Shown in pieces: positions 3,423 to 20,973 of a stretch of DNA of 64,000 nt. This stretch comes from Methanomassiliicoccales archaeon. Its GTDB lineage: Archaea; Thermoplasmatota; Thermoplasmata; Methanomassiliicoccales; UBA472. The position numbers and the translations under genes are program-made. Positions within the stretch are counted from its first letter, which is position 1. The number at the start of each line of letters is the position of its first letter. The notes under the pieces were generated by a model, which did not search any database, was not told the origin of the DNA, and saw nothing but the letters and a program-made list of their open reading frames with translations. The stretch lies in assembly GCA_013415865.1 (NCBI GenBank), contig CP058896.1:1283957-1347956 (forward strand). Direction: 5' to 3'.

Positions 3423-4544
3423 TCAATCGTCGTCCAACGCCTCAGAGAAAGCGACGGCGACATCTTTTATCGGTATCCTAGGTCTGTCCTTATAGGTCCC
3501 AAAGTCTTTCTGTGCACAGTTGAGGTGTATCATGCATTTTGGACAGCTGGTCAGGAGCATGTCTGCTCCGGTCCTCCTTGCCTCTCCCAGCCTTCCGAGC
3601 TGCCACTTTTTAACTATGTGATCGCACTGCACAAAGCATGTGCTCCCGCAGCAGGCGGACATCTCGCTGCTCCTTGGCATCTCGATCAGCTCACCTATGC
3701 TGGAGATGGCGGCCCTGGGGGGGTCATATATGCCCATAAATCTGCCAAGCCTACATGGGTCCTGATAAGTGAATTTCAGGCCAAGGCTATCTGGGGCCAG
3801 ATTGCCCTCATCGATCCCTTTCTTGATGACCTCTGTTATGTGCACTACCTTGTAACGGACATCACCAACGACCTCAGGATAGATACAGGCCAATGTATGT
3901 GAACACTCAGGGCAGACAGTGATGATGTTTCTCACATCAGACCTTGATATCGCATCAACATTGGCCTTGGCCAACCTCAGGAACTCGTCCATATCTCCGA
4001 GCCAATAGGCATCGTGTCCGCAACACCTTTCACCCTCGATCAATTTGGGCCTGATGCCGGTCTTATTGAGGATTCTCACTGCTGAGCGGAGAGATGCGGT
4101 AAGATCGACCTTTAGGTCTCTGAAAACGATATCAAGCAAGGGGATGCAACCTACGAACAGAGCAAATTCAGAACGATCATCGAGCTCTAGGCCTTCCTTG
4201 GTCCAATCGTTCCTTTTTCCGATCCCCTTCCCCGTTGCCTGGACCGACCTGATCGAATCGATGATGCTTGCATGCGTCCTCACTGGTATAGTGCTATTCA
4301 GGCGGTCCTTCCTGAGGGCTTGCATGAAACCTGGAAAGTCGACCCCCTCGGGACAGACGGTCCTGCATGTGCCGCAAGTCATGCATGACCAAAGGTCAAG
4401 CCCGTTGATCCCATGGACCATGAACCTCTCTGCAGTGTCTCTTGGTGAGAACTCCCTCTCGAAATGAGAGGCCGGGCAGGAGAAGGTGCAATGACCACAT
4501 CCGATACATGAAAAGATATCAGGCCGGTCTTCGCCTTGGCTCAG
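3423..4544 (-). CDS. HdrD-like iron-sulfur oxidoreductase (ferredoxin plus two CCG domains), probable CTG start
   Basis: The conventional ATG at 4421 would cut off half of a ferredoxin domain. Reading upstream in the same frame gives C-IGC-GHC-TFSC-P, a complete first 4Fe-4S motif, before CMTCGTCRTVCPE. The frame opens at about 4544, where the codon is CTG, overlapping the TGA stop of mvhD (CTGA), with GGAGG 7 nt before it. The CCG domains are FVGC...ERCCGH...CPECSHTL and DPCRLGR...SACCGSTCF...CPKCMIHL. This layout matches HdrD or fused HdrCB proteins that reduce disulfides or take electrons from a partner. A GTG, TTG or ATG is absent in the extension, so CTG initiation, or a -1 frameshift from mvhD, should be considered. 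Confidence 0.8.
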   Translation of the reverse strand: MSQGEDRPDIFSCIGCGHCTFSCPASHFEREFSPRDTAERFMVHGINGLDLWSCMTCGTCRTVCPEGVDFPGFMQALRKDRLNSTIPVRTHASIIDSIRSVQATGKGIGKRNDWTKEGLELDDRSEFALFVGCIPLLDIVFRDLKVDLTASLRSAVRILNKTGIRPKLIEGERCCGHDAYWLGDMDEFLRLAKANVDAISRSDVRNIITVCPECSHTLACIYPEVVGDVRYKVVHITEVIKKGIDEGNLAPDSLGLKFTYQDPCRLGRFMGIYDPPRAAISSIGELIEMPRSSEMSACCGSTCFVQCDHIVKKWQLGRLGEARRTGADMLLTSCPKCMIHLNCAQKDFGTYKDRPRIPIKDVAVAFSEALDDD

Positions 4545-4951
4545 GGCGACCCCTCCCTGAGCGGTCCGATCTCTTTGATCTTCTCGACGAAGTCCTTGCA
4601 GGTCTCAGCAAATAGCGTTCCCTCGGAGGCCGAGATCCATTTGAGCAACAGCCTCTCTTCCGATATCCCCAAGGCCTTTAAAAGGTCCCTTGTCTGTTCC
4701 ATCCTGGTCTTTGCGTTTTTATTGCCTATCTTGTAATGGCAATCGCCGATATGGCAGCCGAGGACCAGGACACCATCGGCCCCTCCTTCTAAGCATCTAA
4801 GGACCATGCTAGGTTCTACCCTTCCTGAGCACATCACCCTTAAAATCTTTATGTTCGATGGATACTGGAGGCGCGTCACCCCTGCAAGGTCAGCACCGGC
4901 ATAGGCGCACCAGTTGCAGCAGAATGCAATGATCTTCGGCTCCCAGGTCAA
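4541..4951 (-). CDS. mvhD: MvhD-type electron-transfer subunit (2Fe-2S)
   Basis: The 136 residues match the delta subunit of F420-non-reducing hydrogenase. Cysteine motifs are FCCNWCAYAGAD, RVMCSGRVEP and LGCHIGDCHYKIGN. MvhD transfers electrons between a hydrogenase or dehydrogenase and Hdr proteins. Here it is directly upstream of, and overlaps by four bases, an HdrD-like protein rather than HdrA or MvhAG. The pair therefore looks like a stand-alone electron-transfer module whose donor is not encoded here. The start ATG is 4951; the region upstream is shared with the divergent radical-SAM gene. Confidence 0.92.
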   Translation of the reverse strand: MTWEPKIIAFCCNWCAYAGADLAGVTRLQYPSNIKILRVMCSGRVEPSMVLRCLEGGADGVLVLGCHIGDCHYKIGNKNAKTRMEQTRDLLKALGISEERLLLKWISASEGTLFAETCKDFVEKIKEIGPLREGSP

Positions 4952-5101
4952 TCCATCTCACGCTCTCGGCCCTAACATTGAGATCAGGGCCTTAACCCCC
5001 CTCACGCCTCGACATGTGATAGTTTTTTCCATTGGGGAGACCAGGTACTTCCGGTCGATCAATGGAAAGGATTATGATTGGGCCATCGCTCTCTCATCCC
5101 G

Positions 5102-5806
5102 ATGCCCAAGATAGTAGGTTTTGCAAGGACCTCCCTCCTTGACTGGGATGGAAAGGTCGCAGCAACGGTCTATCTGCAAGGATGCAACCTGAGATGCGGC
5201 TTTTGCCACAATCCAGACCTTGTCCCGATGGTCTCAGGGCTCACGGAGGTCCCTTTCGAGGAGATCAGTGGGTATATTGCGTCGAACAATGACTTCCTTG
5301 AGGGCGTTGTCATCACAGGAGGGGAGGCCACGATACATAAGGACCTGCCCGAGCTGATATCCAGATTCAAGGATATGGGCATGAAGGTCAAGTTGGATAC
5401 CAACGGGACCAATCCCTTGGTGTTGAAGGATCTGATCAGGTCAGGGATGTTGGACTTCATAGCCATGGACATCAAGGCCCCCCTGAACCATAAATACTCA
5501 GAGATAACATCTTCCAAGATCGACCTCGACGCGATTAAGGGGTCGATATCATTGATCATGGACGAGATGACCGACTATGAGTTCAGGACAACGGTCGTGC
5601 CCTTTTACCTCGACACGCCTGACATCGAGGCCATAGCCTCTTTCATCGGTGGCGCGAAGAAATATGCCCTCCATCAGTTCAACAACAAGAATACGCTCGA
5701 CCCGAGGCTGGCGCTCATGTCACCGTATCCTGACAGCAAGCTCAGGGAAATGGCCGAGGTCGCGAAACAGTACGTCAGGAAGGTGGTTCTCAGAGGTACG
5801 ACCTGA
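5102..5806 (+). CDS. Radical SAM protein, anaerobic ribonucleotide reductase activase-like
   Basis: The radical SAM motif CNLRCGFC (C-x3-C-x2-C) follows the typical N-terminal SLLDWDGKVAATVYLQG of NrdG-like activases; GGEAT (SAM-binding) and DTNGTNP follow. The protein is about 234 residues. I use ATG 5102, since conserved sequence begins at PKIVGFARTS; an upstream TTG at 5078 is possible. The usual role is generating the glycyl radical on a class III ribonucleotide reductase or other glycyl-radical enzyme, but no such partner is in the window, so the substrate is uncertain. A T-rich hairpin follows the stop. Confidence 0.8.
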   Translation: MPKIVGFARTSLLDWDGKVAATVYLQGCNLRCGFCHNPDLVPMVSGLTEVPFEEISGYIASNNDFLEGVVITGGEATIHKDLPELISRFKDMGMKVKLDTNGTNPLVLKDLIRSGMLDFIAMDIKAPLNHKYSEITSSKIDLDAIKGSISLIMDEMTDYEFRTTVVPFYLDTPDIEAIASFIGGAKKYALHQFNNKNTLDPRLALMSPYPDSKLREMAEVAKQYVRKVVLRGTT

Positions 5807-5826
5807 GGGTTTTTTTTATAAAACCA
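5807..5826 (+). terminator. Probable T-run terminator after the radical-SAM gene
   Basis: Just after the TGA stop comes a run of eight T flanked by short complementary arms (GGTTTT and AAAACC). Oligo-T tracts are the main intrinsic termination signal in archaea. It separates the radical-SAM gene from the KaiC-like array. Confidence 0.5.
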
Positions 5827-5905
5827 TCGTCAATATTTAATATTTCAATCCCCCATTTTACTCCAGCCATAATAGGAAATGCATGATCTGACTGGGTGGT
5901 TCAAG

Positions 5906-6619
5906 ATGACCGAAGGGGGAAGGTTGAAAACATACATCGAAGGATTTGACAGGATAATGGAAGGCGGGATCCCTGAGGGTCACCTGGTTTTGATCTCGGG
6001 CACCCCTGGCACCATGAAATCCTCGCTCTCTTATTATTTGCTATATCATCATGCGATAGAGAACGGGACGACGTCCGTCTATGTCACTTTGGAACAGTCC
6101 CGGGACAGCCTGCTCAAACAGATGGAAAAGATGGGGATGAGGACCGAGCTGGTCAAGGACAAGCTCCATGTGCTTGACCTTGGCCTCATCAGGAAGAAAT
6201 TGAAAGAGGTCCAGGGGGGCAGCTCTTGGCTCCACGTGTTCAAATCCTATATGACGAACCTCAAGGAGAACCTCGACTACAAGATACTGGTAATAGATTC
6301 TCTAGACGTCCTTGAGACAATGGCAGAGGTCTCCAACAGGAGGACCGAGCTTTTCTACCTATTCGAGTGGATGAGGGACCTTGGGGCGACCGTCCTTCTG
6401 ATCTCTGAGTCCTCGACGGAAAAGATCCTTGATGGTAAGTACGATGAGGGATACCTGTCTGATGGGATCATAACATTGAAGATGCAGGTCATTAGGGATG
6501 TCGAATCACAAAGACGGATCAGGTGCGTCAAGATGAGGGAGACGAACCACGACCCCTCATATTATTCGTTGTTGTATAACAACGGGAGGTTCCAGGTCAC
6601 CAGGGTCATAAGTGAATGA
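5906..6619 (+). CDS. KaiC/RAD55-like RecA-fold ATPase (array member 1)
   Basis: A single RecA-type domain of the archaeal KaiC-like family. The ATP site reads GTPGTMKSS at residues 32-40, where the usual Gly before the Lys is Met. The acidic residue region is VTLEQS and Walker B is ILVIDSLDVLE. I start at ATG 5906 because GGGTGGT lies 6 nt upstream; ATG 5879 is an alternative. Such proteins act as ATP-dependent switches in signalling, motility or unknown assemblies; none of these is shown here. It is the first of three tandem paralogues and is 14 nt from the second. Similarity with the third copy is high (EGGIPEGH / QGGIPKGQ, shared DSLDVLE). Confidence 0.85.
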   Translation: MTEGGRLKTYIEGFDRIMEGGIPEGHLVLISGTPGTMKSSLSYYLLYHHAIENGTTSVYVTLEQSRDSLLKQMEKMGMRTELVKDKLHVLDLGLIRKKLKEVQGGSSWLHVFKSYMTNLKENLDYKILVIDSLDVLETMAEVSNRRTELFYLFEWMRDLGATVLLISESSTEKILDGKYDEGYLSDGIITLKMQVIRDVESQRRIRCVKMRETNHDPSYYSLLYNNGRFQVTRVISE

Positions 6620-6633
6620 GCGCGGTGTCATAA

Positions 6634-8115
6634 ATGGCCAGCAAATTTGAGTGCCCCCGATGTGGCAGCGGGATAAAGCCTGGAGACTATCAGTGCGACC
6701 GTTGTGGGGAGATCCTTCGAAAAATCGAAAAGAAGGCCCCGCCCCGGCAAGCTGCCCAGGTCGACGAGCCCTCAAGTACCAGGCCACATGCTGACATCAA
6801 TGTTGACGAACAGAGAAGGCTCGATCTCCTTCAAAAAGAGAGGGACCTGCAGATAAAGGAGAGACAGCTGGCCGAAAAGGAATCCCGGCTGAAGGATATG
6901 ATGGAATCTCTGGAGAAGGATGCCCAACATCTGGACGATTCGATCGCCCTCGTTGAAAACCAGAAGGCCGTGCTCCAAGAGAAACAGGAATCGATCCTCG
7001 AAAGGGAAGAGCTTTTACTGGACCTTATGCAAAGAGTGGAGGCGGGACTTGCTGAGATAGCTGGTTACATCGAGGCATCAAAAAAAGGCGCGATGAACGA
7101 GGACGACCTAGGGGCGGTCCTCGAGCTCAAGCGCAGGTTCACCTCCACATATGAGCCTGAAAGAAGGAGGGTGAAGAAAGGAATAATCGACTTCGACGTT
7201 CAGGACCTCAGCAGAGTGATCGAGCTGGAGGCGATGCTCCGTGCCGCGGAGGAAAAGGCCAATAAATACCGCTTGCAGCTTGAGGAAAAAACAGAGCTCA
7301 CTTCCGAGGAGTCAGTCAGCGTAATTCCCGATGAAAAACTGATGGAGGAGATCAGCTCGCAGCTCGATGAACAGATAGGTAAGGGATGCGCTGATACACA
7401 GATAGGATTACCGATACAGACAAGGATGGACAAGATGGACAGCATTCTTGGAGGGGGCATCCCCACAGGGCATGTCATACTTGTCACGGGTCCGCCAGGC
7501 AGCATGAAGTCGACGTTGGCTTACAGCCTTGTATATAATGCATCGATCGCCCAATCGACGAACTCCTTATACATATCGCTGGAACAGAGCAGCGGCTCGC
7601 TTTTAAGGCAGATGGAAAGGCTCAACATGCCGGCCCATAGGATCGGCGACAAGATGATGGTCGTCGACATGGTCGGCCTTCGAAAGACGATGGCAGATGA
7701 ACAGGGTGATTGGAGGAGCATCCTGCTGAGATACGTCAAGAACATTTATTCTGAATGGAGGTTCAAGTTCTTCGTCCTGGATTCCTTGGGGGCTTTTAAG
7801 TCGATAACCTCTCACGAGTACTCGAGGGAAGACCTTCATGAACTTTTTGAATGGTTCAAGGAATTGGGCATTACGGTGTTCCTGATAGCTGAGGCGGGCG
7901 CGGGGGACGCGGCCGAGATCATGCAAGAAGCATACCTATCAGATGGCGTCATCGAGATGAGGATGAAAGAGTTCGGTGATTCAAGGGTACAGAGATGGAT
8001 GAGGGTCGTGAAGATGCGCGGCATGAACATCGATACCAGATTCTATGCCATGCTCCACAACGGTGACCATTTCATATTCACTCTCCCGATGGTCGAAACT
8101 AACAGGGGCCCCTGA
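6634..8115 (+). CDS. Zinc ribbon - coiled coil - KaiC-like ATPase (array member 2)
   Basis: This 493-residue paralogue has an N-terminal zinc ribbon (C7, C10, C21, C24), then a long heptad-like charged region (about residues 50-130 and 185-215, rich in Glu, Lys, Leu and Gln) that should form a coiled coil, then a KaiC-like ATPase domain from about residue 260. The ATP site is GPPGSMKST at 286-294, again with Met before Lys; Walker B is FFVLDSLG. The long coiled coil could hold partners or form fibres, while the single-domain copies on each side may be its partners. Function unknown. Confidence 0.85.
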   Translation: MASKFECPRCGSGIKPGDYQCDRCGEILRKIEKKAPPRQAAQVDEPSSTRPHADINVDEQRRLDLLQKERDLQIKERQLAEKESRLKDMMESLEKDAQHLDDSIALVENQKAVLQEKQESILEREELLLDLMQRVEAGLAEIAGYIEASKKGAMNEDDLGAVLELKRRFTSTYEPERRRVKKGIIDFDVQDLSRVIELEAMLRAAEEKANKYRLQLEEKTELTSEESVSVIPDEKLMEEISSQLDEQIGKGCADTQIGLPIQTRMDKMDSILGGGIPTGHVILVTGPPGSMKSTLAYSLVYNASIAQSTNSLYISLEQSSGSLLRQMERLNMPAHRIGDKMMVVDMVGLRKTMADEQGDWRSILLRYVKNIYSEWRFKFFVLDSLGAFKSITSHEYSREDLHELFEWFKELGITVFLIAEAGAGDAAEIMQEAYLSDGVIEMRMKEFGDSRVQRWMRVVKMRGMNIDTRFYAMLHNGDHFIFTLPMVETNRGP

Positions 8116-8132
8116 CGCTCACGGCACGAAAT

Positions 8133-8900
8133 ATGTTGACAAGCTTTTATAACATCATAAATGATGTAAGCACGGGAAGGATGCCACCGCAGATAGAGCG
8201 CATAAAGACATATGTCCAGAATTTCGATGATTACATACAGGGCGGTATACCGAAGGGCCAGGTCGTCCTGATCACAGGAACGCCAGGAACAATGAAGTCA
8301 TCGCTCTGCTACAGCATCCTATACAATAATGCGCTCTACGAGAAGACAAAGAGCGTCTACATGACCTTGGAGCAATCAAGGAATAATCTGCTCGAACAGA
8401 TGCAGCTGATGGGAATGGAGAATCCGGCCGTACAAGAGTACGTTCAGGTGGTGGACCTGGGCCTGATCCGCCGGAGCCTGACCGAGCTGAGCTCAAGAGG
8501 CTCTTGGCTGCAGGTCTTCAAGATGTATGCTGAGAATCTGAAGAAGACAATAGGTTTCGACATCCTCGTCCTGGACTCCCTGGATGTATTGGAGATGGCA
8601 GCCCAGATACGTGATGACAGAAGGACAGAGCTGTTCTATCTCTTCGAGTGGCTGAGGGGCATGGGCATTACATCTTTCCTCATATCGGAGAGGGCGCCTG
8701 AGGAGATCTTCTCGCGAAGCTACGACGAAGGATATCTTGCGGATGGGATATTGAGCCTGAAGCTGCAGGAGATCGGCGAGTCCGATGTTCAAAGGCGGAT
8801 CAGGGCCGTGAAGCTGAGGAGCACGAATCACAAGGCGGGATACTTCTCCTTGCTGTTCAGTGATGGCATGTTCAGGGCCACCCAGGTCATCAGCGAATGA
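8133..8900 (+). CDS. KaiC/RAD55-like RecA-fold ATPase (array member 3)
   Basis: The third paralogue is a single ATPase domain very similar to member 1. The ATP site is GTPGTMKSS at residues 49-57, with TLEQS, and Walker B ILVLDSLDVLE. The start is unsettled: ATG 8133 gives 255 residues, while ATG 8181 would align better with member 1 but its purine-rich upstream stretch touches the start. It lies 17 nt after member 2, and the stop is 60 nt before tRNA-Val, so the three genes probably form one operon. The C-terminal tail (FRATQVISE) matches member 1 (FQVTRVISE), pointing to duplication. Confidence 0.85.
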   Translation: MLTSFYNIINDVSTGRMPPQIERIKTYVQNFDDYIQGGIPKGQVVLITGTPGTMKSSLCYSILYNNALYEKTKSVYMTLEQSRNNLLEQMQLMGMENPAVQEYVQVVDLGLIRRSLTELSSRGSWLQVFKMYAENLKKTIGFDILVLDSLDVLEMAAQIRDDRRTELFYLFEWLRGMGITSFLISERAPEEIFSRSYDEGYLADGILSLKLQEIGESDVQRRIRAVKLRSTNHKAGYFSLLFSDGMFRATQVISE

Positions 8901-13445: not shown

Positions 13446-13462
13446 GGATGGATACTCCATCC
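13446..13462. promoter_or_regulatory. Inverted repeat GGATGG-N5-CCATCC upstream of the corrinoid gene
   Basis: Six-base arms with five-base spacer lie just upstream of the probable TATA box at 13471-13480. Placement suggests an operator for an activator or for a repressor of the methyltransferase operon. No regulator is encoded directly beside it. Confidence 0.45.
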
Positions 13463-13470
13463 GTAACAAT

Positions 13471-13480
13471 CTTTAATATT
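13471..13480 (+). promoter_or_regulatory. Probable TATA box of the corrinoid/methyltransferase operon
   Basis: CTTTAATATT sits about 60 bases before ATG 13539. With the usual archaeal spacing, transcription would begin around 13500, leaving a leader of about 40 bases that includes the GAGGTGG ribosome site. Confidence 0.45.
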
Positions 13481-13538
13481 CACATAGACCCCTTCAAATC
13501 TACTCGCCATCCTTTTCAGGGCGATGAGGTGGAACAGA

Positions 13539-14180
13539 ATGAGTAAAGAGGAGATTTTAGCTGGATTGGAAAAAGCCGTCGTGGCAGGAAAGAAGGATGA
13601 CGCCAAGAGATATGCCAGCGAAGGATTGGCCCATGGTGTCAAAGCTCTTGAGGCCATCGACCAGGGATTGATCAAGGGGATGAACATCGTCGGTGACAAG
13701 TATGCAGCCCACGAGTATTTCCTTCCGCAGGTGCTCTTGGCCGCGGATGCGATGTACGGTGCGCTCGACATCCTGCTCCCCCACATACCGAAGGACCAGC
13801 TTTCAAAGCAGATCAAAGCGGTCATCGGCGTCGTCGAAGGCGATGTCCATGACATAGGCAAGAACATCGTGAAGACGATGATGACAGCAGGCGGGTTCGC
13901 CGTTCAGGACCTAGGCCGAGACGTGCCACCAGAGAAGTTCGTCGAGGGTGCGAAGGCGAATGATGGTGGTATCGTGGCGATGAGCACCCTGATGACGCCC
14001 ACCATGGACGGAATGAAGATGGTCATGGACGGTCTGATCGAGTCCGGGGTCAGGATGAAGGTCAAGGCCATCATAGGTGGTGCGCCGACCTCTCAGGAAT
14101 TTGCGGACGATATAGGGGCGGATTTCCATGCTGTCAATGCCCAGGAAGGAGTCTCAAAGCTCAAGGCAGCGTTGCTCTGA
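13539..14180 (+). CDS. Corrinoid (B12-binding) methyl carrier protein
   Basis: A 213-residue protein with an N-terminal helical cap (residues ~1-85) and a Rossmann-like B12 domain. The axial-ligand motif is EGDVHDIGKNIV with H104 (D-x-H-x-x-G), then MSTLMTPTMDGMK and the GGAPTSQEFA loop, as in MtaC, MtbC and MtmC. Such proteins carry a methyl group between a substrate-specific methyltransferase and a second acceptor enzyme. The start ATG 13539 is chosen because GAGGTGG lies 6 nt upstream; the frame extends upstream to 13524. The partner methyltransferase is 24 nt downstream. No MtaB, MttB, MtbB or MtmB gene is nearby, so the methyl donor is unknown. Confidence 0.93.
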   Translation: MSKEEILAGLEKAVVAGKKDDAKRYASEGLAHGVKALEAIDQGLIKGMNIVGDKYAAHEYFLPQVLLAADAMYGALDILLPHIPKDQLSKQIKAVIGVVEGDVHDIGKNIVKTMMTAGGFAVQDLGRDVPPEKFVEGAKANDGGIVAMSTLMTPTMDGMKMVMDGLIESGVRMKVKAIIGGAPTSQEFADDIGADFHAVNAQEGVSKLKAALL

Positions 14181-14204
14181 GCACAGATCAGGGGGAATGA
14201 AGAT

Positions 14205-15305
14205 ATGGCAGACACAATGAACCACATTGAGAGAGTATTGGCGGCGCTGGGTGACAAGCCGGTCGACCGCCTGACAACCTATCCGATCGCCTGCGGGGTC
14301 TGTCGCAGGACCGTCGGCGATGGTAAGATGACCTATAGGGAATGGGCAACCGACCCGAAGAAATATGCACAAGGGTTCATCAGCGGGCAGAAATATTTCG
14401 ACTTTGACTTCGCGATCGGTCTCATGGACCTATCGGTCATGGCAGGCGACCTTGGTTGCCACGTCCGCATGGACGAGCAGAACACTCCGTTCGTGGACAA
14501 GACGATCATCAACAGCCCAGAGGACTATGAGAAGCTGCAGGTCCCTGACATCAGGAAGGGCCGCACTGGCGTCATACTTGAGGGGACAAAGATGTTCGTG
14601 GACGCCATCGGAAAGGAGGTCATCACCGCGGGCTTCATCGAGGGGCCGTTGCTCGCTCTGACACAGTCCGCAGGTGCCGAGCGCGTCTTCATGGACATGG
14701 TCAACCACAGGTCGGCCGTCCACAAGGCGCTCGAGACCCTCACGGCGTATGATGCCGAGTTCGTCAAAGGGTTCGCCCAGGCAAAACCAGCGGGATTGGT
14801 CTGGGACTACCTATGGGGCAACTATTCATGCCTTGGGGACGCTCAGTATGAGGAGTTCGAAGGGCAGCACAAGTATGCGGGATATCTCAACGAGCTGACA
14901 GCCAAGGAGGGAATGGCATTCTGCATACACAACTGCGCAGACCTGCCGCACCTTGACACACAGATCAAGAAATTCAAACCGGCGATATACTCCATGGCAT
15001 ACTACCCATTGATCCCTGGAAGCCCCTCTGCAAAGGAGACGATAGCGAAGGGATATGCCGACAACTGCCTGATCGCAGGCCAGATCGACCCGCAGCTCTT
15101 TGTCCGTGGGACCGTCGAAAAGATGGAGGCCACGACGATGAAGCTTATCCAAGAGGTCAAGACGGCATTGTGCCAGAAGGGGCTCCACTCCAGATACTGC
15201 ATAGCATCTGGATGTGAGGTGCCGCCGTCCGTCACGACCAAATTGGAGAACATCAAGGCCTGTGTAGACACCGTCAAGAAGTATGGCCAGGTCCAATGCA
15301 ACTGA
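14205..15305 (+). CDS. UroD-family cobamide methyltransferase (MtaA/MtbA/MtvB-like)
   Basis: The 366-residue protein has the uroporphyrinogen-decarboxylase fold. The zinc site used by methylcobamide methyltransferases is visible: H242-x-C244 (CIHNCADLP) and C337 (SGCEVPP). True UroD lacks this Cys in the GHG region. Homologues transfer methyl from the corrinoid to coenzyme M (MtaA, MtbA), or demethylate an O-methyl or halide substrate (MtvB/OdmB, CmuA). The sequence alone does not tell which of these it does. H-N-C-A replaces the H-I-C-G seen in MtaA, so the second acceptor may differ. It shares the operon with the corrinoid protein and is followed by a T-rich terminator. Confidence 0.88.
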   Translation: MADTMNHIERVLAALGDKPVDRLTTYPIACGVCRRTVGDGKMTYREWATDPKKYAQGFISGQKYFDFDFAIGLMDLSVMAGDLGCHVRMDEQNTPFVDKTIINSPEDYEKLQVPDIRKGRTGVILEGTKMFVDAIGKEVITAGFIEGPLLALTQSAGAERVFMDMVNHRSAVHKALETLTAYDAEFVKGFAQAKPAGLVWDYLWGNYSCLGDAQYEEFEGQHKYAGYLNELTAKEGMAFCIHNCADLPHLDTQIKKFKPAIYSMAYYPLIPGSPSAKETIAKGYADNCLIAGQIDPQLFVRGTVEKMEATTMKLIQEVKTALCQKGLHSRYCIASGCEVPPSVTTKLENIKACVDTVKKYGQVQCN

Positions 15306-15327
15306 GCATTGCAGACCAAACCCCTTC

Positions 15328-15340
15328 TTTTTTTAATTTT
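15328..15340 (+). terminator. T-run terminator after the UroD-type gene
   Basis: CTTTTTTTAATTTT lies about 25 bases after the stop. It ends the corrinoid-methyltransferase transcript; an AT box (TATTTAATAA, about 15371-15380) starts the CobW operon soon after. Confidence 0.5.
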
Positions 15341-15413
15341 ATAAGATTTAAAGCCCTTGACCTCAAAACCTATTTAATAATGTCATTGCGTTCGAGATGA
15401 ATTGAGTGAGAAC

Positions 15414-16091
15414 ATGAAGATCGCGCAGATAGCTGGCTTCCTGGGGAGCGGAAAAACGACCTTCCTTATCGAGGTTGCGAAGGAACTGGTCAACAGGGGG
15501 CACCGCATCGCGATCGTCGTCAATGACGTGGGCGACATCAACGTTGATGCGAAGTTCATCGAGATGTATGGATTGAAGGCGAAGGAGATCTCTGGAGGTT
15601 GCATATGCTGTCAGATAGCTGGAAGCTTTGCGACCACGGTCGCAACTTTGTACAATACCTTCAAACCAGACATTATAATCGTAGAACCTTCAGGCGTCGC
15701 GATACCATGGGGGTTGAAAAGGGCAGCAGAATACTCGGAGGAGGAGATGGAGGCAAAGATCGAGCACTCTCCCGTTGTGACCCTCGTCGATTCGGTCCGT
15801 ATAGACGAGCTATTGGAGTCAGTAAGGAGATTGGTAGAGACCCAGATACGCGAGGCAGATGTGGTCTTCATCAACAAGATAGACGCTTCAACTTCCGAAA
15901 AGATAAGGCGTTCAGAGGATTTCGTCAGATCCATCAACCCAAGGGCAAAGATCATGCATGGCTCAGGGAAGCAAAATCAGGGGGTCAAGGAGATCGCGAA
16001 CCTCATCGAGACCGAGCTCTCCCCAAGGTATGATGAGGCGATGGAAAAGGAACTTCTCAGGAAACAGTACGTCGAGGGGCAGCAACAATGA
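15414..16091 (+). CDS. CobW/HypB-family metal or cofactor GTPase
   Basis: A P-loop GTPase of the CobW family: GFLGSGKTT (Walker A) near the N terminus, VVNDVGDIN (switch), the metal-binding GGCICC motif with three cysteines, EPSGV, and FINKID (guanine specificity). About 225 residues; the C-terminal CobW domain is short. CobW GTPases deliver metals or help corrinoid metabolism. The position beside corrinoid proteins suggests cobalt or corrinoid handling, but zinc transfer to the methyltransferase is also possible. ATG 15414 is used; TTG 15402 is an alternative start. The stop overlaps the next gene (ATGA). Confidence 0.88.
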   Translation: MKIAQIAGFLGSGKTTFLIEVAKELVNRGHRIAIVVNDVGDINVDAKFIEMYGLKAKEISGGCICCQIAGSFATTVATLYNTFKPDIIIVEPSGVAIPWGLKRAAEYSEEEMEAKIEHSPVVTLVDSVRIDELLESVRRLVETQIREADVVFINKIDASTSEKIRRSEDFVRSINPRAKIMHGSGKQNQGVKEIANLIETELSPRYDEAMEKELLRKQYVEGQQQ

Positions 16092-16552
16092 AAGAAATGG
16101 ACGAGGAACTGCACATCGAGATGCACAGGTTGGTCGACGAGCTTGGGAAGTTCAGCATCCACATGACCATTCGACCGAACAAGGTCATGTCAAAGGAGGC
16201 ATGTGAGGAGTTCGTCAGGACCCTCTTGGAGCAGATAACCAAAGAATGCTTTAATGACGGAGCGGACCTCGTGGGTCATATAAAGGCGTTCCTCTCGTCG
16301 GAACATGGCACGACGCTCGCCGCCTCGTTGATACATCACCAGATGCCGGTCAACATCACCAATGCCCTCGATGCCAGAGGGCTCAGTGTCGGCGACATGA
16401 CCGTCCACGTTATTGTGCACGGGATCTGGGACGACACAGTGAAACATGCTTCCATGGAGAGCATCGAGAAAGTCCTGCCGACCTATGGGATCCAATATGA
16501 GGTCCTGAAGGATTATTATGAGACCGAAAAAGGCATAGCCCATCACAAGTGA
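16088..16552 (+). CDS. Conserved-looking protein of unknown function in the corrinoid locus
   Basis: A 154-residue soluble protein, start ATG overlapping the CobW stop (ATGA) and end overlapping the next gene (GTGA), so all three are translationally linked. The sequence is rich in His (HIKAFLSSEHG, HHQMP, HVIVHGIWDD and C-terminal GIAHHK) and may bind metal. I do not recognise the family. Its tight coupling to the GTPase and zinc ribbon suggests a small complex. Confidence 0.75.
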   Translation: MKEMDEELHIEMHRLVDELGKFSIHMTIRPNKVMSKEACEEFVRTLLEQITKECFNDGADLVGHIKAFLSSEHGTTLAASLIHHQMPVNITNALDARGLSVGDMTVHVIVHGIWDDTVKHASMESIEKVLPTYGIQYEVLKDYYETEKGIAHHK

Positions 16553-16905
16553 GGATGAAGAATATGGTAGAACCTGTAACGGATCCACACGCGCTCGATG
16601 GTTATTATATGGCGATGAGGGCAAAGGGGTTCTCATCAAATACTGTCGATTCGGTGAGGAGGCATAAATGCCCCAATTGTAATTTTGAGTTCGCCTTGGT
16701 CTATGGCAGGACCACCGCGTGCCGTGGATGCGCAGAGGCGGTCAAGAACTGTCCAAAAGTAAGATGCCCCAAGTGTGATTTTGAATGGTTCATCAGGGAC
16801 GTCCCTCATATCAACAACAAATATCGCGCAAGGTCGGTGGAGACGCACATCTCTGAGGTCGTCGAAAAATATTACGAGGACAATGGTTGGAAGAAAAATA
16901 GATGA
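16549..16905 (+). CDS. Small zinc-ribbon-like protein of the corrinoid locus
   Basis: A 118-residue protein with two or three cysteine pairs: CPNC, CRGC, C and CPKC, with the shape of tandem zinc fingers or rubredoxin-like knuckles, followed by a charged helix. The start GTG at 16549 overlaps the preceding TGA (GTGA); ATG 16555 or 16564 are options. It does not look like a known subunit. It could be a metal carrier for the CobW system or a regulator. It converges with the minus-strand operon; the stops are 28 bases apart. Confidence 0.7.
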   Translation: MRMKNMVEPVTDPHALDGYYMAMRAKGFSSNTVDSVRRHKCPNCNFEFALVYGRTTACRGCAEAVKNCPKVRCPKCDFEWFIRDVPHINNKYRARSVETHISEVVEKYYEDNGWKKNR

Positions 16906-16932
16906 ACGATTCGCTCCTTCATGATGCCATTT

Positions 16933-17310
16933 CTATTTAAGAGCGTCCTCCATCAATTTCAAGAATGCCAAGATCTCGTCCTCCTTGATGTCAGGGAAAT
17001 CCCAATCGCTTGTGAACTGACATGGCCCGATCTTCCTATCTGTCGCATCGTCCAGGACAACGGACCTGGCGACCTTCATTCCAGCCTTCTCAAGGATCCG
17101 GTCGCAGCATCTGTTCCTGCATCCGTTGATGGCGATGAGGTCGTTCATGTCGACCCCGCTCATAGATATCATGATAGGGCTGGTCGCGACCGTACAGATG
17201 CTGAACTGCAGCATCTTGCCTGTATTCCTTGGGCCGAACTTCTCGATCGCCCGCTCGAGCATGACGCCGCGCTCGCCATTGGCACCGCAGACTATCACGC
17301 CTTTCCGCAT
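16933..17310 (-). CDS. DGC-domain-like putative metal-binding protein (copy 2)
   Basis: A 125-residue protein that starts VIVCGANGERGVM and has the INGCRNRCCDRILEKAGM motif typical of DGC-type 'putative zinc-binding' proteins, where the cysteines are expected to bind metal. The start ATG 17310 has AAGGAG 3 nt upstream and overlaps the preceding gene by 16 nt. It is the last gene of the minus-strand operon with the hydantoinase-type ATPase and a second, related DGC-type protein. The function is unknown. Confidence 0.7.
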   Translation of the reverse strand: MRKGVIVCGANGERGVMLERAIEKFGPRNTGKMLQFSICTVATSPIMISMSGVDMNDLIAINGCRNRCCDRILEKAGMKVARSVVLDDATDRKIGPCQFTSDWDFPDIKEDEILAFLKLMEDALK

Positions 17311-17657
17311 TTGCTCCTTGCCTCCTGAACTAGTTTAACGATTTTTTCTGACTCCAACTGGACTGCCTTATCAGAGACCATCGCATATTGGTTCAACATC
17401 AATTTCCCGACGGGATTTACGCCATACCTCATCAAGGTCTGAAGACCGCAAAAACCTTCACAACCGTCCACCACGACGACGCATCGGCCCGCGAGCGCCC
17501 TCATCTCCTCCACGGCCTTAGGGATCTCCGCCAAGGCAGGGGCGACGGTGACCATCCTGATCCTTTCTTTTTTTGAGGCCTCTCTGACAGCTGCTCTCAG
17601 CACTCGGGCCCCAGGACTATACCCAGAGCATATTACCACGTCCACCTCTTCGCTCAT
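17295..17657 (-). CDS. DGC-domain-like putative metal-binding protein (copy 1)
   Basis: A 120-residue protein that begins VDVVICSGYSPGARVLRAAVREA and has VVVDGCEGFCGLQTLMRYG, the D-G-C motif of the family. It overlaps the hydantoinase-type gene by four bases (ATGA) and the second DGC gene by 16 bases. Two unequal copies in one operon suggest a heterodimer. Homologues often accompany methyltransferase or corrinoid genes in anaerobes, which is only a contextual hint here. Confidence 0.7.
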   Translation of the reverse strand: MSEEVDVVICSGYSPGARVLRAAVREASKKERIRMVTVAPALAEIPKAVEEMRALAGRCVVVVDGCEGFCGLQTLMRYGVNPVGKLMLNQYAMVSDKAVQLESEKIVKLVQEARSKCGKA

Positions 17658-19663
17658 ACCCTTGCCTCGAAGAACAATCTCGGTTTTCCTATCGCCGTCG
17701 CTGTCACCTTGGTCTCAAGTCTAATGCCAGTTCCCCAGCTCTTTCCCAGGTGGCCGATCTTGTCGTCCTTCTCGACGATAACCTCTACCTCGTCGGCACC
17801 CGCCTGGACCGCCATTTCCTTAGCGGCACCCCTTACCCAGTTCTCTGCATAGGCCACCGCTTCATCCAATGTATCAAAGTCCTTCCTCTCGAGCGGAGAG
17901 TGAAGTATGCAGGGAGGATTATCCATTGCCGACACTCCAGGTTTCGGCCTGATCAGAACCTCTACGGTCTCCATGATGCTCCCAGTGATGGCACCTACTG
18001 CGTTACCGACCTCTGAGTGCTCAGGGAGCAACAGATGTGTCCCAAACTTCTCGGCGACAGCCGGAAGGTAAGCACCGACAGGTGCGCCGATACCTATTAT
18101 CTTTTTATGCAGTTTCAGGTTGATGGAGTAGTCCAGACCTGGTTTATGGGTGATCGTCTTATCGAACGTGTCCATACAGACATCACAGGTGGGCATCGAG
18201 CCGGTCTCCTCATAGACGAGCTTTTTGATAAGTTCCATCGAGATCTTGTAGATGACCGCCTGGCGGACCTGCCTACAGAACTCTGAAGGTTCGATCTCAA
18301 GAATGTTCGATTGTATCTCGACCGCCAGCCTTGACGCCTCCTCGTCATATTCGATGTAGGACCTGTCAGCATGCAGGACGTCGGTCGGGGTAAGGCCGAT
18401 CCGAAGTATGTAGCCAACCTCCTCCAACCTCCTTATGTTGAAACTGAACGGATGAATACCTGTTTTCTCCGACACCTCGTAGACGGTCATCGGCTCCTGC
18501 TTGACAAGGTCCACAAAGGTCTGTTCCTCTTTTGAGAGCTCCATACCGACGACAGCCTTGTTGAAGATGAAGAATTCCGTATTCTGGATAACATTTTCGA
18601 TGGCCACGTGTCCTGCCTGTGGCCTCGGCTTTTCTTGGCTCGCCTTCACGAGCTTTGGTTTTATGCAATCGAACCTGCATGACGCGATGCAAAGCGGCAT
18701 GACCCGCAGAGGGTTAAGATAGATCTTCCCATTGGTGACGACTATCCTGCTGTCCCCCCCGCATCCAGAGGTGGAGATGTCCGCTGCCTTTACCCTCGTG
18801 CGCCATCCACCTATCATCGCCCCCTCAGGGTCCAATCTGGGCATGCCTTTTCTTAGAACGCCGATATCGGTGGTCGTCCCTCCAACATCGATCATGATCC
18901 CGTTCTCTTCTCTCGTAAGATACTTTGCGCCGATCAAACTGGCCGCCGGTCCAGAAAGGACGGTCTCCACCGGTCTCTCGCTCGCGACCTGCTCTCCCAT
19001 CAACGACCCGTCCCCCTTCACTATCATCAAAGGTGCGACGATACCATAGCTCTTCAGCACCTTCTTCACTGAATCTAAGAGGTCGGCGATTATAGGGATG
19101 AGCTTGGCGTTGAGGATCGCAGTGACCGTTCTCTCATAGAACCCAAGCTTTGAAGAGAGCTCGTGACCACAGACCACGGGGTGGGAGCAGATGCCCTGCA
19201 CCATCCTCTTCAGGGCCATCTCGTGCTCCGGGTTCCTTACACTCAGGTAGCTTGAGATGGCATAGGCATCGACCTTGTCCTTCGTCCTTATAACGAATTC
19301 TCTGGCCTTGTCGATCTCCAGGTCAGCCAACTTCTCACCGACAAGATTGTGCCCGCCCTTGATCTCTATGAACTCATCGATCGGCACCATCTGCCGGTAC
19401 TCCCCACCAGCCAGGATGAGACCTACCCTGCACCCCTTCCCTTCAACAACGGAGTTGGTTGCCAAAGTGGACGAGACAGATACGAGCCTGATGTCAGAAT
19501 GTCTCACGTTCTCAAGCTTGCCGATAGAGTTCGATATCCCTTCTGAAAGGTCGTGCCTTGTCGTCAAGGCCTTGGCCTTGCTCAGGACCTTTCCCTTCTC
19601 AAGATCGATGATCACAGAGTCAGTATATGTTCCACCAGTGTCGATTCCAAGACCCAGATGCAT
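17654..19663 (-). CDS. Hydantoinase/oxoprolinase-family ASKHA ATPase
   Basis: The protein starts LGLGIDTGGTYTDSVIID (actin-like phosphate-1 motif) and has MIDVGGTTTDIGVLR (phosphate-2) and AVAEKFGTHLLLPEHSEVGNAVGAITG toward the C terminus, as in HyuA-type subunits. No HyuB is nearby. About residues 380-450 form an inserted winged-helix-like segment with SKEEQTFVDLVKQEPMTVYEVSEKTG-type sequence. I start at ATG 19663 (about 669 residues), where AAGGTGG lies 5 nt upstream; the adjacent ATG 19666 is possible. RACo-type corrinoid activators share the ASKHA fold, so an ATP-driven activator role in this corrinoid locus is plausible but untested. Confidence 0.85.
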   Translation of the reverse strand: MHLGLGIDTGGTYTDSVIIDLEKGKVLSKAKALTTRHDLSEGISNSIGKLENVRHSDIRLVSVSSTLATNSVVEGKGCRVGLILAGGEYRQMVPIDEFIEIKGGHNLVGEKLADLEIDKAREFVIRTKDKVDAYAISSYLSVRNPEHEMALKRMVQGICSHPVVCGHELSSKLGFYERTVTAILNAKLIPIIADLLDSVKKVLKSYGIVAPLMIVKGDGSLMGEQVASERPVETVLSGPAASLIGAKYLTREENGIMIDVGGTTTDIGVLRKGMPRLDPEGAMIGGWRTRVKAADISTSGCGGDSRIVVTNGKIYLNPLRVMPLCIASCRFDCIKPKLVKASQEKPRPQAGHVAIENVIQNTEFFIFNKAVVGMELSKEEQTFVDLVKQEPMTVYEVSEKTGIHPFSFNIRRLEEVGYILRIGLTPTDVLHADRSYIEYDEEASRLAVEIQSNILEIEPSEFCRQVRQAVIYKISMELIKKLVYEETGSMPTCDVCMDTFDKTITHKPGLDYSINLKLHKKIIGIGAPVGAYLPAVAEKFGTHLLLPEHSEVGNAVGAITGSIMETVEVLIRPKPGVSAMDNPPCILHSPLERKDFDTLDEAVAYAENWVRGAAKEMAVQAGADEVEVIVEKDDKIGHLGKSWGTGIRLETKVTATAIGKPRLFFEARV

Positions 19664-19714
19664 CATTTCCACCTTTAGGACCCAATAGGATAGTAAAGTA
19701 AGAACTCCAACCCT

Positions 19715-19724
19715 CTTTATAAAG
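19715..19724 (-). promoter_or_regulatory. Probable TATA box of the hydantoinase-type operon
   Basis: The palindromic CTTTATAAAG lies about 52 bases upstream of ATG 19663, allowing a leader of roughly 25 bases that holds the GGTGG site. Confidence 0.45.
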
Positions 19725-19863: not shown

Positions 19864-20973
19864 TCAGCTTATATCCGATGCGGCCTCGCACGAACGATAT
19901 TTTGACGACCTATGGGCGATCTCATTGACCTTATCATCTGTGACCCTCTGCACCACAGGGATATCCTCCCCGAATGCCCTTCTGAACTCTCTTAAAATGT
20001 ACTCGTGTACCAGCCCTGATCTTTTCATTGATTCATAGCTCCAATTGTCGGCAAGATCAAGGATGGCCTCTTTTCCATAGCGATAGAACGCATCAGCGAG
20101 CATGGAGTTGACGATCGTGTTGTCCGATATCACAGCGATGTCCGCCTCTCTCACCGCTTGGGCGCACCCGTTAAAGGATATGGCCAGTCCACCGCCCTTT
20201 CTCACGATCCCTAATGAACGGGGGTCGCTCACGGCCCCTCCGATGTATATGCAGTCCTCAAGAGAGACCCCCATCCGCTTGCATATCTCCACAACCGCGG
20301 ACGCCTTCTCTGAATCCCCTATGATGGGCGTCTCCATGATCAGGTGATAGCTCGATAGATCCGTCATATCATTCCAGAACATCTGATCCAGACGTTGGAT
20401 CGTCCTTCTGTCCTCCGGCCTCAGATCCTTAAGCCTGTTGCCGAAAGAACAATGGATAGGGGGCATCGAGGCGATCTCTTGCGCCATATCTCTCAAGGTC
20501 TGTGCTTCCCAGTCATCGATCTTGACGGAGTCAAGGCTGAACCTGATACAAAAGGTGTTCTCGAAGGGGAATCCGACGTTCTCGCAGACCGCCGTGACAT
20601 GATGTTCATATAATGATGTGACCAAGAAAGGGGACATTATCTCTTGAACAAACCTCATGGTCTTGCCAGAACCGGGCACTAACCGCAGGGCCCCCTTAAA
20701 ATGTTCCACCAGGGAATGGTCCGTCACCCCATATGCCTTGAGGAACGGGAGGACCATCTTTGCCCTATCCCCTTCCCTATGTCCGTCCTTCCTCACGACA
20801 TTGGCAAGGACCTCGTCGTAGCTCGATATGACCTTTAGGAACCGGTGCCCTTCCGGAATGAACTTGATGCAGGCCTCATGGACCGGATTGTTCCTCGACA
20901 CGGCGCCATCGCACTCGCTGATGAACACCTTTCCATCGTATGGCATCAGGTCGTCAAGGCCATCGAACTCCAT
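19864..20973 (-). CDS. HAD-superfamily archaeal hydrolase, EhaR/COG4030-like
   Basis: A 369-residue HAD-like protein that opens with GKVFISECDGAVSRNNPVHE. This resembles the archaeal EhaR-type proteins that sit in the Eha hydrogenase operon of Methanothermobacter (start FISDCEGPIS from memory). Later motifs SVKIDDWE, GDSEKA, IYIGGAVSDPRSLG and GLAISFNG fit a HAD core with its second Asp. The C-terminal region is helical. No Eha hydrogenase gene is in the window, so the 'hydrogenase subunit' label should not be used here. Function is unknown. Confidence 0.7.
   Translation of the reverse strand: MEFDGLDDLMPYDGKVFISECDGAVSRNNPVHEACIKFIPEGHRFLKVISSYDEVLANVVRKDGHREGDRAKMVLPFLKAYGVTDHSLVEHFKGALRLVPGSGKTMRFVQEIMSPFLVTSLYEHHVTAVCENVGFPFENTFCIRFSLDSVKIDDWEAQTLRDMAQEIASMPPIHCSFGNRLKDLRPEDRRTIQRLDQMFWNDMTDLSSYHLIMETPIIGDSEKASAVVEICKRMGVSLEDCIYIGGAVSDPRSLGIVRKGGGLAISFNGCAQAVREADIAVISDNTIVNSMLADAFYRYGKEAILDLADNWSYESMKRSGLVHEYILREFRRAFGEDIPVVQRVTDDKVNEIAHRSSKYRSCEAASDIS

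Follow-up and report, generated by a model that had tools for sequence, protein, structure and literature searches.

A conserved gene module of Methanomassiliicoccales that may form an MtsA/MtsB-like corrinoid methyl-transfer system

Methyl-reducing methanogens of the order Methanomassiliicoccales are widespread in guts and wetlands. In mire metatranscriptomes methyl sulfide genes stand out among those that the order expresses, and no isolate has been grown on methyl sulfides (PMC10805028). Among described systems, the one closest to the locus presented here is MtsA/MtsB, in which MtsA is reported to perform both half-reactions with MtsB (Tallant 2001, cited in PMC4153887); MtsA has been described as bifunctional, and ISO4-H5 has MtsA/MtsB (PMC5011839). 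Within the order mtsAB has been published in some members, ISO4-H5 among them, and is absent from 'Ca. M. intestinalis'. Two further kinds of cluster are relevant. Type 1 mlp clusters, found in anaerobes including Methanococcales, need two UroD proteins, Mlp2 and Mlp3, as a minimum, together with a Ram/RACE activase (PMC10418091, Kountz and Balskus), and a hydantoinase gene (HydA) lies with a RACE gene inside the glycine betaine Mtg cluster of acetogens (PMC9768040). Here we describe eight genes at 13539-19666 of a 64,000-nucleotide window (the whole stretch of DNA analysed, in whose numbering positions are given), which corresponds to bases 1,283,957-1,347,956 of a closed 1.82-Mb Methanomassiliicoccales genome. 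These genes would constitute a substrate-specific, MtsA/MtsB-like corrinoid methyl-transfer module of a methylotrophic methanogen, using a methyl-S (or methyl-Se) donor, a proposal that is the likeliest of those considered here, but that we hold to be evenly balanced between right and wrong. No published description of the gene set was found in a literature search that covered few subscription journals. McrA is present in the genome, marking the organism as a methanogen, and in 115 of 147 sampled genomes of the order, the gene content being that of methyl-reducing methanogens; the organism itself would be an H2-dependent methylotrophic methanogen.

On the + strand, the corrinoid (B12-binding) methyl carrier CorP (213 residues, 13539..14180) is followed by a predicted UroD-type zinc methyltransferase (366 residues, 14205..15305; Pfam URO-D, 148 bits), a short CobW-type (COG0523) GTPase with the motif GGCICC (225 residues, 15414..16091; Pfam cobW, 136 bits), and two small proteins, H154 (154 residues, 16088..16552) and H118 (118 residues, 16549..16905). 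The - strand encodes a hydantoinase-family ASKHA ATPase (17654..19666; Pfam Hydant_A_N, 105 bits, and Hydantoinase_A, 109 bits) and two DGC-domain proteins, a (120 residues, 17295..17657; 51.4 bits) and b (125 residues, 16933..17310; 33.6 bits), both exceeding the Pfam DGC cut-off of 27. In alignments of 14 sequences, Cys 10, 66 and 70 are invariant in DGC a and Cys 8, 39, 64, 68 and 97 in DGC b. The eight genes lie where the initial annotation had placed them, and its fold calls hold on Pfam search; while its gene positions stand, three likely starts have been corrected, to ATG 13539 (in an open reading frame extending from 13524), ATG 15414 and ATG 19666, each preceded by a Shine-Dalgarno-like GGTGG/GAGTGAG recognised by eye. 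Because the UroD and CobW genes are 96 bp apart, with a T-run and TTTAATTTTATAAG in the gap, the + strand may comprise two transcription units. A scan for sigma-70 promoters and terminators gave no clear excess over shuffled sequences, and there is no cobalamin riboswitch in the window.

Conservation was assessed in a sample of 147 genomes of the order (30 genera), in a phylum-wide search of 390 genomes, and by reading 40 neighbourhoods of relatives. Since these loci were picked for holding UroD or ASKHA, linkage counts are valid for UroD orthologues only, and were made on the 28 orthologues flanked on both sides by 4 kb or more of contig. All 28 have a corrinoid protein no more than 3 kb from UroD, with H118 no further away than 6 kb and the ASKHA ATPase no further than 9 kb, a linkage far beyond chance. 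In 15 of the 28 loci UroD also has CobW and H154 close by, always as a pair, and the DGC proteins are confined to locus families f1 and f5, with none in f6. The core of the module is therefore CorP-UroD-H118-ASKHA, to which CobW/H154 and the DGC proteins are accessories. Across the phylum, the UroD orthologue and a strong H118 occur in an identical set of 27 of the 390 genomes, all within the order; by our own count about 76 of the 147 genomes, from about 24 of the 30 genera, have the UroD orthologue, some genomes carrying two copies and some closed genomes none. The convergent gene layout is a local variant: f6 loci have all the genes on one strand, and so do certain genomes of f5. The linkage thus extends across the order and is not limited to close relatives, a limit that would have told against the initial annotation, whose claim of a conserved corrinoid one-carbon transfer module with no known donor methyltransferase attached is supported. 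A genome-contig scan with the ASKHA protein returned one near relative only. Among plasmids, ASKHA matches were hydantoinases at 33-36%, neither of the two regions read showing a corrinoid neighbour, and UroD matches reached only 24-25%.

Several other genes recur around the module. A cobalt uptake set (CbiM, an ABC ATPase, a probable CbiQ and a Fur-like regulator) adjoins it in five relatives (L064:10930-14228, and also L061, L062, L074 and L101), as does DUF1638 in several. A receiver-GAF sensor-like protein of 620-680 residues is found near f6 modules (L099:3862-5769 and ten other loci) and may be a regulator.

The UroD protein has a His-x-Cys...Cys (HCC) zinc site, H242-x-C244 and C337, exactly as first annotated. 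The three residues are invariant in 36 orthologues, and every member of the module UroD clade keeps them. This ligand set marks UroD-type S- and Se-methyltransferases, whereas in O-demethylases a Cys is replaced by a carboxylate or lost (PMC10418091); in this feature the module protein agrees with the corrinoid S-methyltransferases. Its partner CorP matches Pfam B12-binding_2 and B12-binding, and has an EGDxHDIGKN motif conserved in 44 relatives.

The nearest solved structure to the UroD protein is MtaA (4ay7), and its best NCBIfam match is PRK06252, methylcobalamin:coenzyme M methyltransferase. One might therefore suppose that it carries out the second half-reaction only, as an MtaA-like methyl-CorP:coenzyme M methylase, and that a donor enzyme not recognised as such, with its gene elsewhere, charges CorP; the thiol of coenzyme M would suit an HCC site. 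We consider this unlikely. The PRK06252 match is of 73.8 bits against a cut-off of 244, and the MtaA and MtbA models of NCBIfam, with cut-offs of 400 and 600, give 42.8 and 53.6 bits, while two separate, genuinely MtaA-like proteins in the same genome exceed the PRK06252 cut-off (357 bits at L102b and 309 bits at L103). A tree of 29 UroD proteins, constructed from sequences other than authentic MtsA or Mlp, sets all 20 module members apart across a single branch (support 96/93); as several outside rows are long-branched, only separateness is claimed. The grouping with true MtaA/MtbA that would have counted against the initial annotation is thus not seen. In addition, there is no recognised donor enzyme near the UroD loci read, and, as the initial annotation had it, no MtaB, MtmB, MtbB or MttB is encoded in the region.

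The genome as a whole points the same way. It contains four corrinoid-protein genes and a single MtaB, which has its own corrinoid gene (MtaC), and family searches found no MtmB, MtbB or MttB in it, leaving no known donor enzyme free to charge CorP. UroD itself is therefore favoured as the demethylase, as MtsA is. The initial annotation had raised this possibility, and the HCC site, with the lack of a spare known donor methyltransferase in the genome, supports it as a prediction. Zinc bound by H242, C244 and C337 would hold the soft sulfur (or selenium) of the methylated donor, allowing the methyl group to pass to the Co(I) of CorP. Methyl-CorP would then hand it on to coenzyme M, through the action either of the same UroD protein, as in MtsA, or of the genome's ordinary MtaA. 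The mtaC gene of this genome (L184:7379-8158 on the - strand, C1 ~591.4-592.2 kb) was itself observed to be interrupted by one in-frame TAG, placed between the helical and the B12-binding domain, although MtmB, MtbB and MttB are lacking; mtaC of ISO4-H5 has likewise been published with an amber codon.

By its domains and fold, the ATPase belongs to the Hydantoinase A/acetone carboxylase ASKHA family. The AlphaFold2 (AF2) model (mean predicted local distance difference test score, pLDDT, 86) matches N-methylhydantoinase, acetone carboxylase and caprolactamase with template modelling (TM) scores of 0.56-0.62 (Foldseek E 7e-29 at TM 0.59), for comparison with 0.12 for RACo, and its closest sequences are likewise N-methylhydantoinase, caprolactamase and acetone carboxylase. 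Pfam finds in it neither RACo_C_ter (PF14574), to which a true RACo from relative L089 gives 299 bits, nor an Fe-S/ferredoxin domain. The missing domains and the hydantoinase fold rule out a RACo-like protein by family or fold, and the earlier suggestion of a RACo-like reductive activator is, as worded, not supported.

What distinguishes the ATPase clade is a set of four Cys residues, C80, C167, C327 and C587 (numbering following window:17654-19669 on the - strand). Of the 23 aligned clade members, 22 have the complete set. Paralogues and two bacterial hydantoinases have lost the four in whole or in part; clade specificity is highest for C80 and C327, and C587 is absent from two further clade members (L175 and L088:5083). 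An early count that suggested an ATPase lacking conserved Cys resulted from mixed-in paralogues. Genomic context links the clade to other methyl-transfer systems. In two relatives it adjoins trimethylamine/dimethylamine methyltransferase genes (MttB/MtbB), some with in-frame TAG: at L088:8977-17534 a four-Cys ATPase lies beside mttB-mttC and mtbC-mtbB, both methyltransferases having in-frame TAG, and a second such ATPase with three of the four Cys is at L088:5083-7083. In L089 a clade member lies beside the true RACo, a corrinoid protein and DUF1638. The ATPase thus probably services corrinoid proteins, and in the present module it would act on CorP, either through reduction to Co(I) or through exchange of damaged corrinoid. 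The two ordinary RamA activases of the genome could do the reduction alone, and exchange is an equal option for the ATPase.

The resemblance to N-methylhydantoinase, caprolactamase and acetone carboxylase in fold and sequence would also fit an ATPase that acts not on CorP but on the substrate, by carbonyl or amide phosphorylation as in hydantoinases and acetone carboxylase, an idea otherwise compatible with the proposed module. It is improbable in our judgement, since no HyuB partner was recognised in the cluster or elsewhere in the loci read (a genome-wide search was not made), the four clade-specific Cys are absent from the bacterial hydantoinases tested, and the clade adjoins the trimethylamine/dimethylamine systems and the true RACo just mentioned, where no such substrate is expected. 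The ATPase gene is followed by a gene for a 369-residue protein (19864-20973, - strand), an arrangement seen in the locus family of the present module and in f5 (10 of 40 loci); the protein has no Pfam match and only weak HAD-phosphatase-like matches.

The CobW protein ends after its GTPase domain: the Pfam cobW match covers residues 9-185 only, and the full-length CobW of the order aligns to the short forms over its residues 4-213 only. The cobW domain, together with an invariant C63-I-C65-C66 that provides the CxCC motif, places it in COG0523. H154, which has no Pfam family, appears to supply the missing part. A profile of 21 H154 sequences matched the C-terminal domain shared by 30 full-length CobW-type GTPases from the order with an hhalign E value of 4.5e-6 over 118 columns. 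The best of 30 column shuffles yielded 0.017, and none of the other module proteins did better than 0.058; against one single full-length CobW the value was 0.41, not significant. H154 has an AF2 pLDDT of 87.7 and finds weak matches only by Foldseek (an M20 peptidase lid and YjiA). Its conserved ligand-type residues include H9, H13, D17, C54, D60, H64, H107, H111, D115 and H152-H153, and in some relatives it is extended by a His/Asp-rich tail. With the short CobW reduced to a GTPase domain and H154 matching the C-terminal one, H154 is, on sequence evidence, the C-terminal domain of a CobW GTPase that has been split between two genes overlapping by 4 bp. The earlier proposal that CobW handles metal is refined accordingly to a two-gene CobW, comprising a GTPase and a 154-residue domain, with a metal role that is predicted.

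Such pairs are not confined to the module. CobW and H154 lie beside RamA and MtaA in two relatives, on contigs that also contain mcrA, and the present genome has a second split CobW (L184:2917-5573, C1:586.9-589.6 kb, + strand), consisting of a GTPase of 203 residues and an H154-like protein of 135 (hhalign E 2.6e-6), directly upstream of the second RamA and adjoining mtaB and mtaC. MtaA and MtaB are zinc enzymes. As the pair adjoins UroD, MtaA and MtaB, we propose that it acts as a zinc chaperone, which in the module would deliver zinc to UroD; its position beside several zinc-dependent methyltransferases is a lead on how these obtain their metal.

H118, with seven Cys and one His invariant in the alignment, has a residue set fit for two four-ligand metal sites and appears zinc-ribbon-like; it has no Pfam match, and no solved relative was found (best E 0.05). 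By linkage this small protein is a strict partner of UroD, which might serve as a scaffold or relay metal or electrons. A paralogue is found elsewhere in nearly every genome of the order. The one in the present genome (C1:602990-603277) lies in a region, C1:602.1-606.8 kb (L106 ~4134-8765), that also encodes DUF169, a radical SAM protein of TrsS type (532 bits, cut-off 490), a further UroD protein and a set of ABC transporter genes resembling, by eye, those of ZnuABC-like zinc uptake.

We infer the catalytic steps, the donor class, coenzyme M as acceptor, the metal and the role of the ATPase from gene content, linkage, the clade and HCC site of UroD, the identity of H154, and the fold and Cys residues of the ATPase. 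Several observations weigh against the MtsA/MtsB-like module. Two RamA activases make a second activator unnecessary. The link between ATPase and corrinoid is partial, about 15 ASKHA-clade loci lacking the module UroD and only about five of these having corrinoid or methyltransferase neighbours. CobW/H154 is not near UroD in 13 of the 28 loci, and CorP, at 201 bits, falls just under the cut-off of 215 for TIGR02370 (methyltransferase cognate corrinoid protein). An HCC site also suits a pure coenzyme M or homocysteine methylase, and the methyl donor is a prediction.

A role in salvage, rather than methanogenesis, would have the genes recover selenium or sulfur from methylated Se/S compounds, in the manner of type 1 mlp clusters. 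In the latter, HCC UroD proteins occur together with a corrinoid protein and an ATPase activase, and in vitro methylation of selenide has been reported for ClMlp2 (PMC10418091); furthermore, the best model for the module CobW is 'CobW-related selenoprotein' (122 bits, cut-off 180). The defining features of the mlp class fail here, there being neither two UroD proteins nor a Ram/RACE activase in the cluster, and no selenium genes were seen nearby, although no search for selenocysteine machinery was made. We regard salvage as somewhat less probable than either alternative above. HCC zinc sites generally activate thiols, and corrinoid-dependent methionine synthesis exists, but transfer of the methyl group by UroD from CorP to homocysteine is highly improbable for a module found in only about 76 of 147 genomes, absent from closed genomes and doubled in some, which is unlike an essential biosynthetic step.

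The MtsA/MtsB-like module could be taken further, to a new methanogenic route in which a hydantoinase-derived four-Cys ASKHA protein, possibly with an Fe-S site, would be a third kind of corrinoid activator beside RamA and RACo, and the split CobW a dedicated zinc-loader for UroD-type methyltransferases. This extension is tentative, and doubtful as a whole. The four-Cys hydantoinase-type ATPase is nonetheless a candidate corrinoid-servicing ATPase outside the known families. Genome G037, which we take to be ISO4-H5, has no orthologue of the module UroD, so the module is probably a system other than the mtsAB known from earlier annotation of the order; found in roughly half of the order's genomes and unlike MtaA/MtbA, it is a candidate for a substrate that has yet to be assigned.

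By analogy, the nearest working model is MtsA/MtsB of Methanosarcina barkeri, which shares the HCC zinc class and illustrates that one UroD-type and one corrinoid protein can make a path from donor to coenzyme M; for MtsAB, compared here by its description, no accompanying hydantoinase ATPase, H118 or split CobW has been reported. MtaA and MtbA share the UroD superfamily and the HxC...C zinc site, but the module UroD reaches 43-74 bits against cut-offs of 244-600, forms a separate clade and coexists with distinct MtaA-like proteins. Type 1 mlp clusters likewise unite an HCC UroD protein, a corrinoid protein and an ASKHA-superfamily ATPase, whereas the module has one UroD (second copies occurring in a few f6 loci only), an ATPase of hydantoinase type, H118 and CobW. 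As with RACo and RamA, an ASKHA-superfamily ATPase adjoins a corrinoid protein; here it lacks a RACo or ferredoxin domain and its fold is nearest to hydantoinase and acetone carboxylase. HydA of the Mtg clusters also represents a hydantoinase-annotated gene within a corrinoid methyltransferase cluster, in that case bacterial and with an MttB-family methyltransferase, the likeness being one of annotation. Finally, the module shares with COG0523/CobW GTPases the CxCC GTPase domain and, in H154, a homologue of the C-terminal domain of the full-length members, and differs from them in that its two domains are separate genes that travel together.

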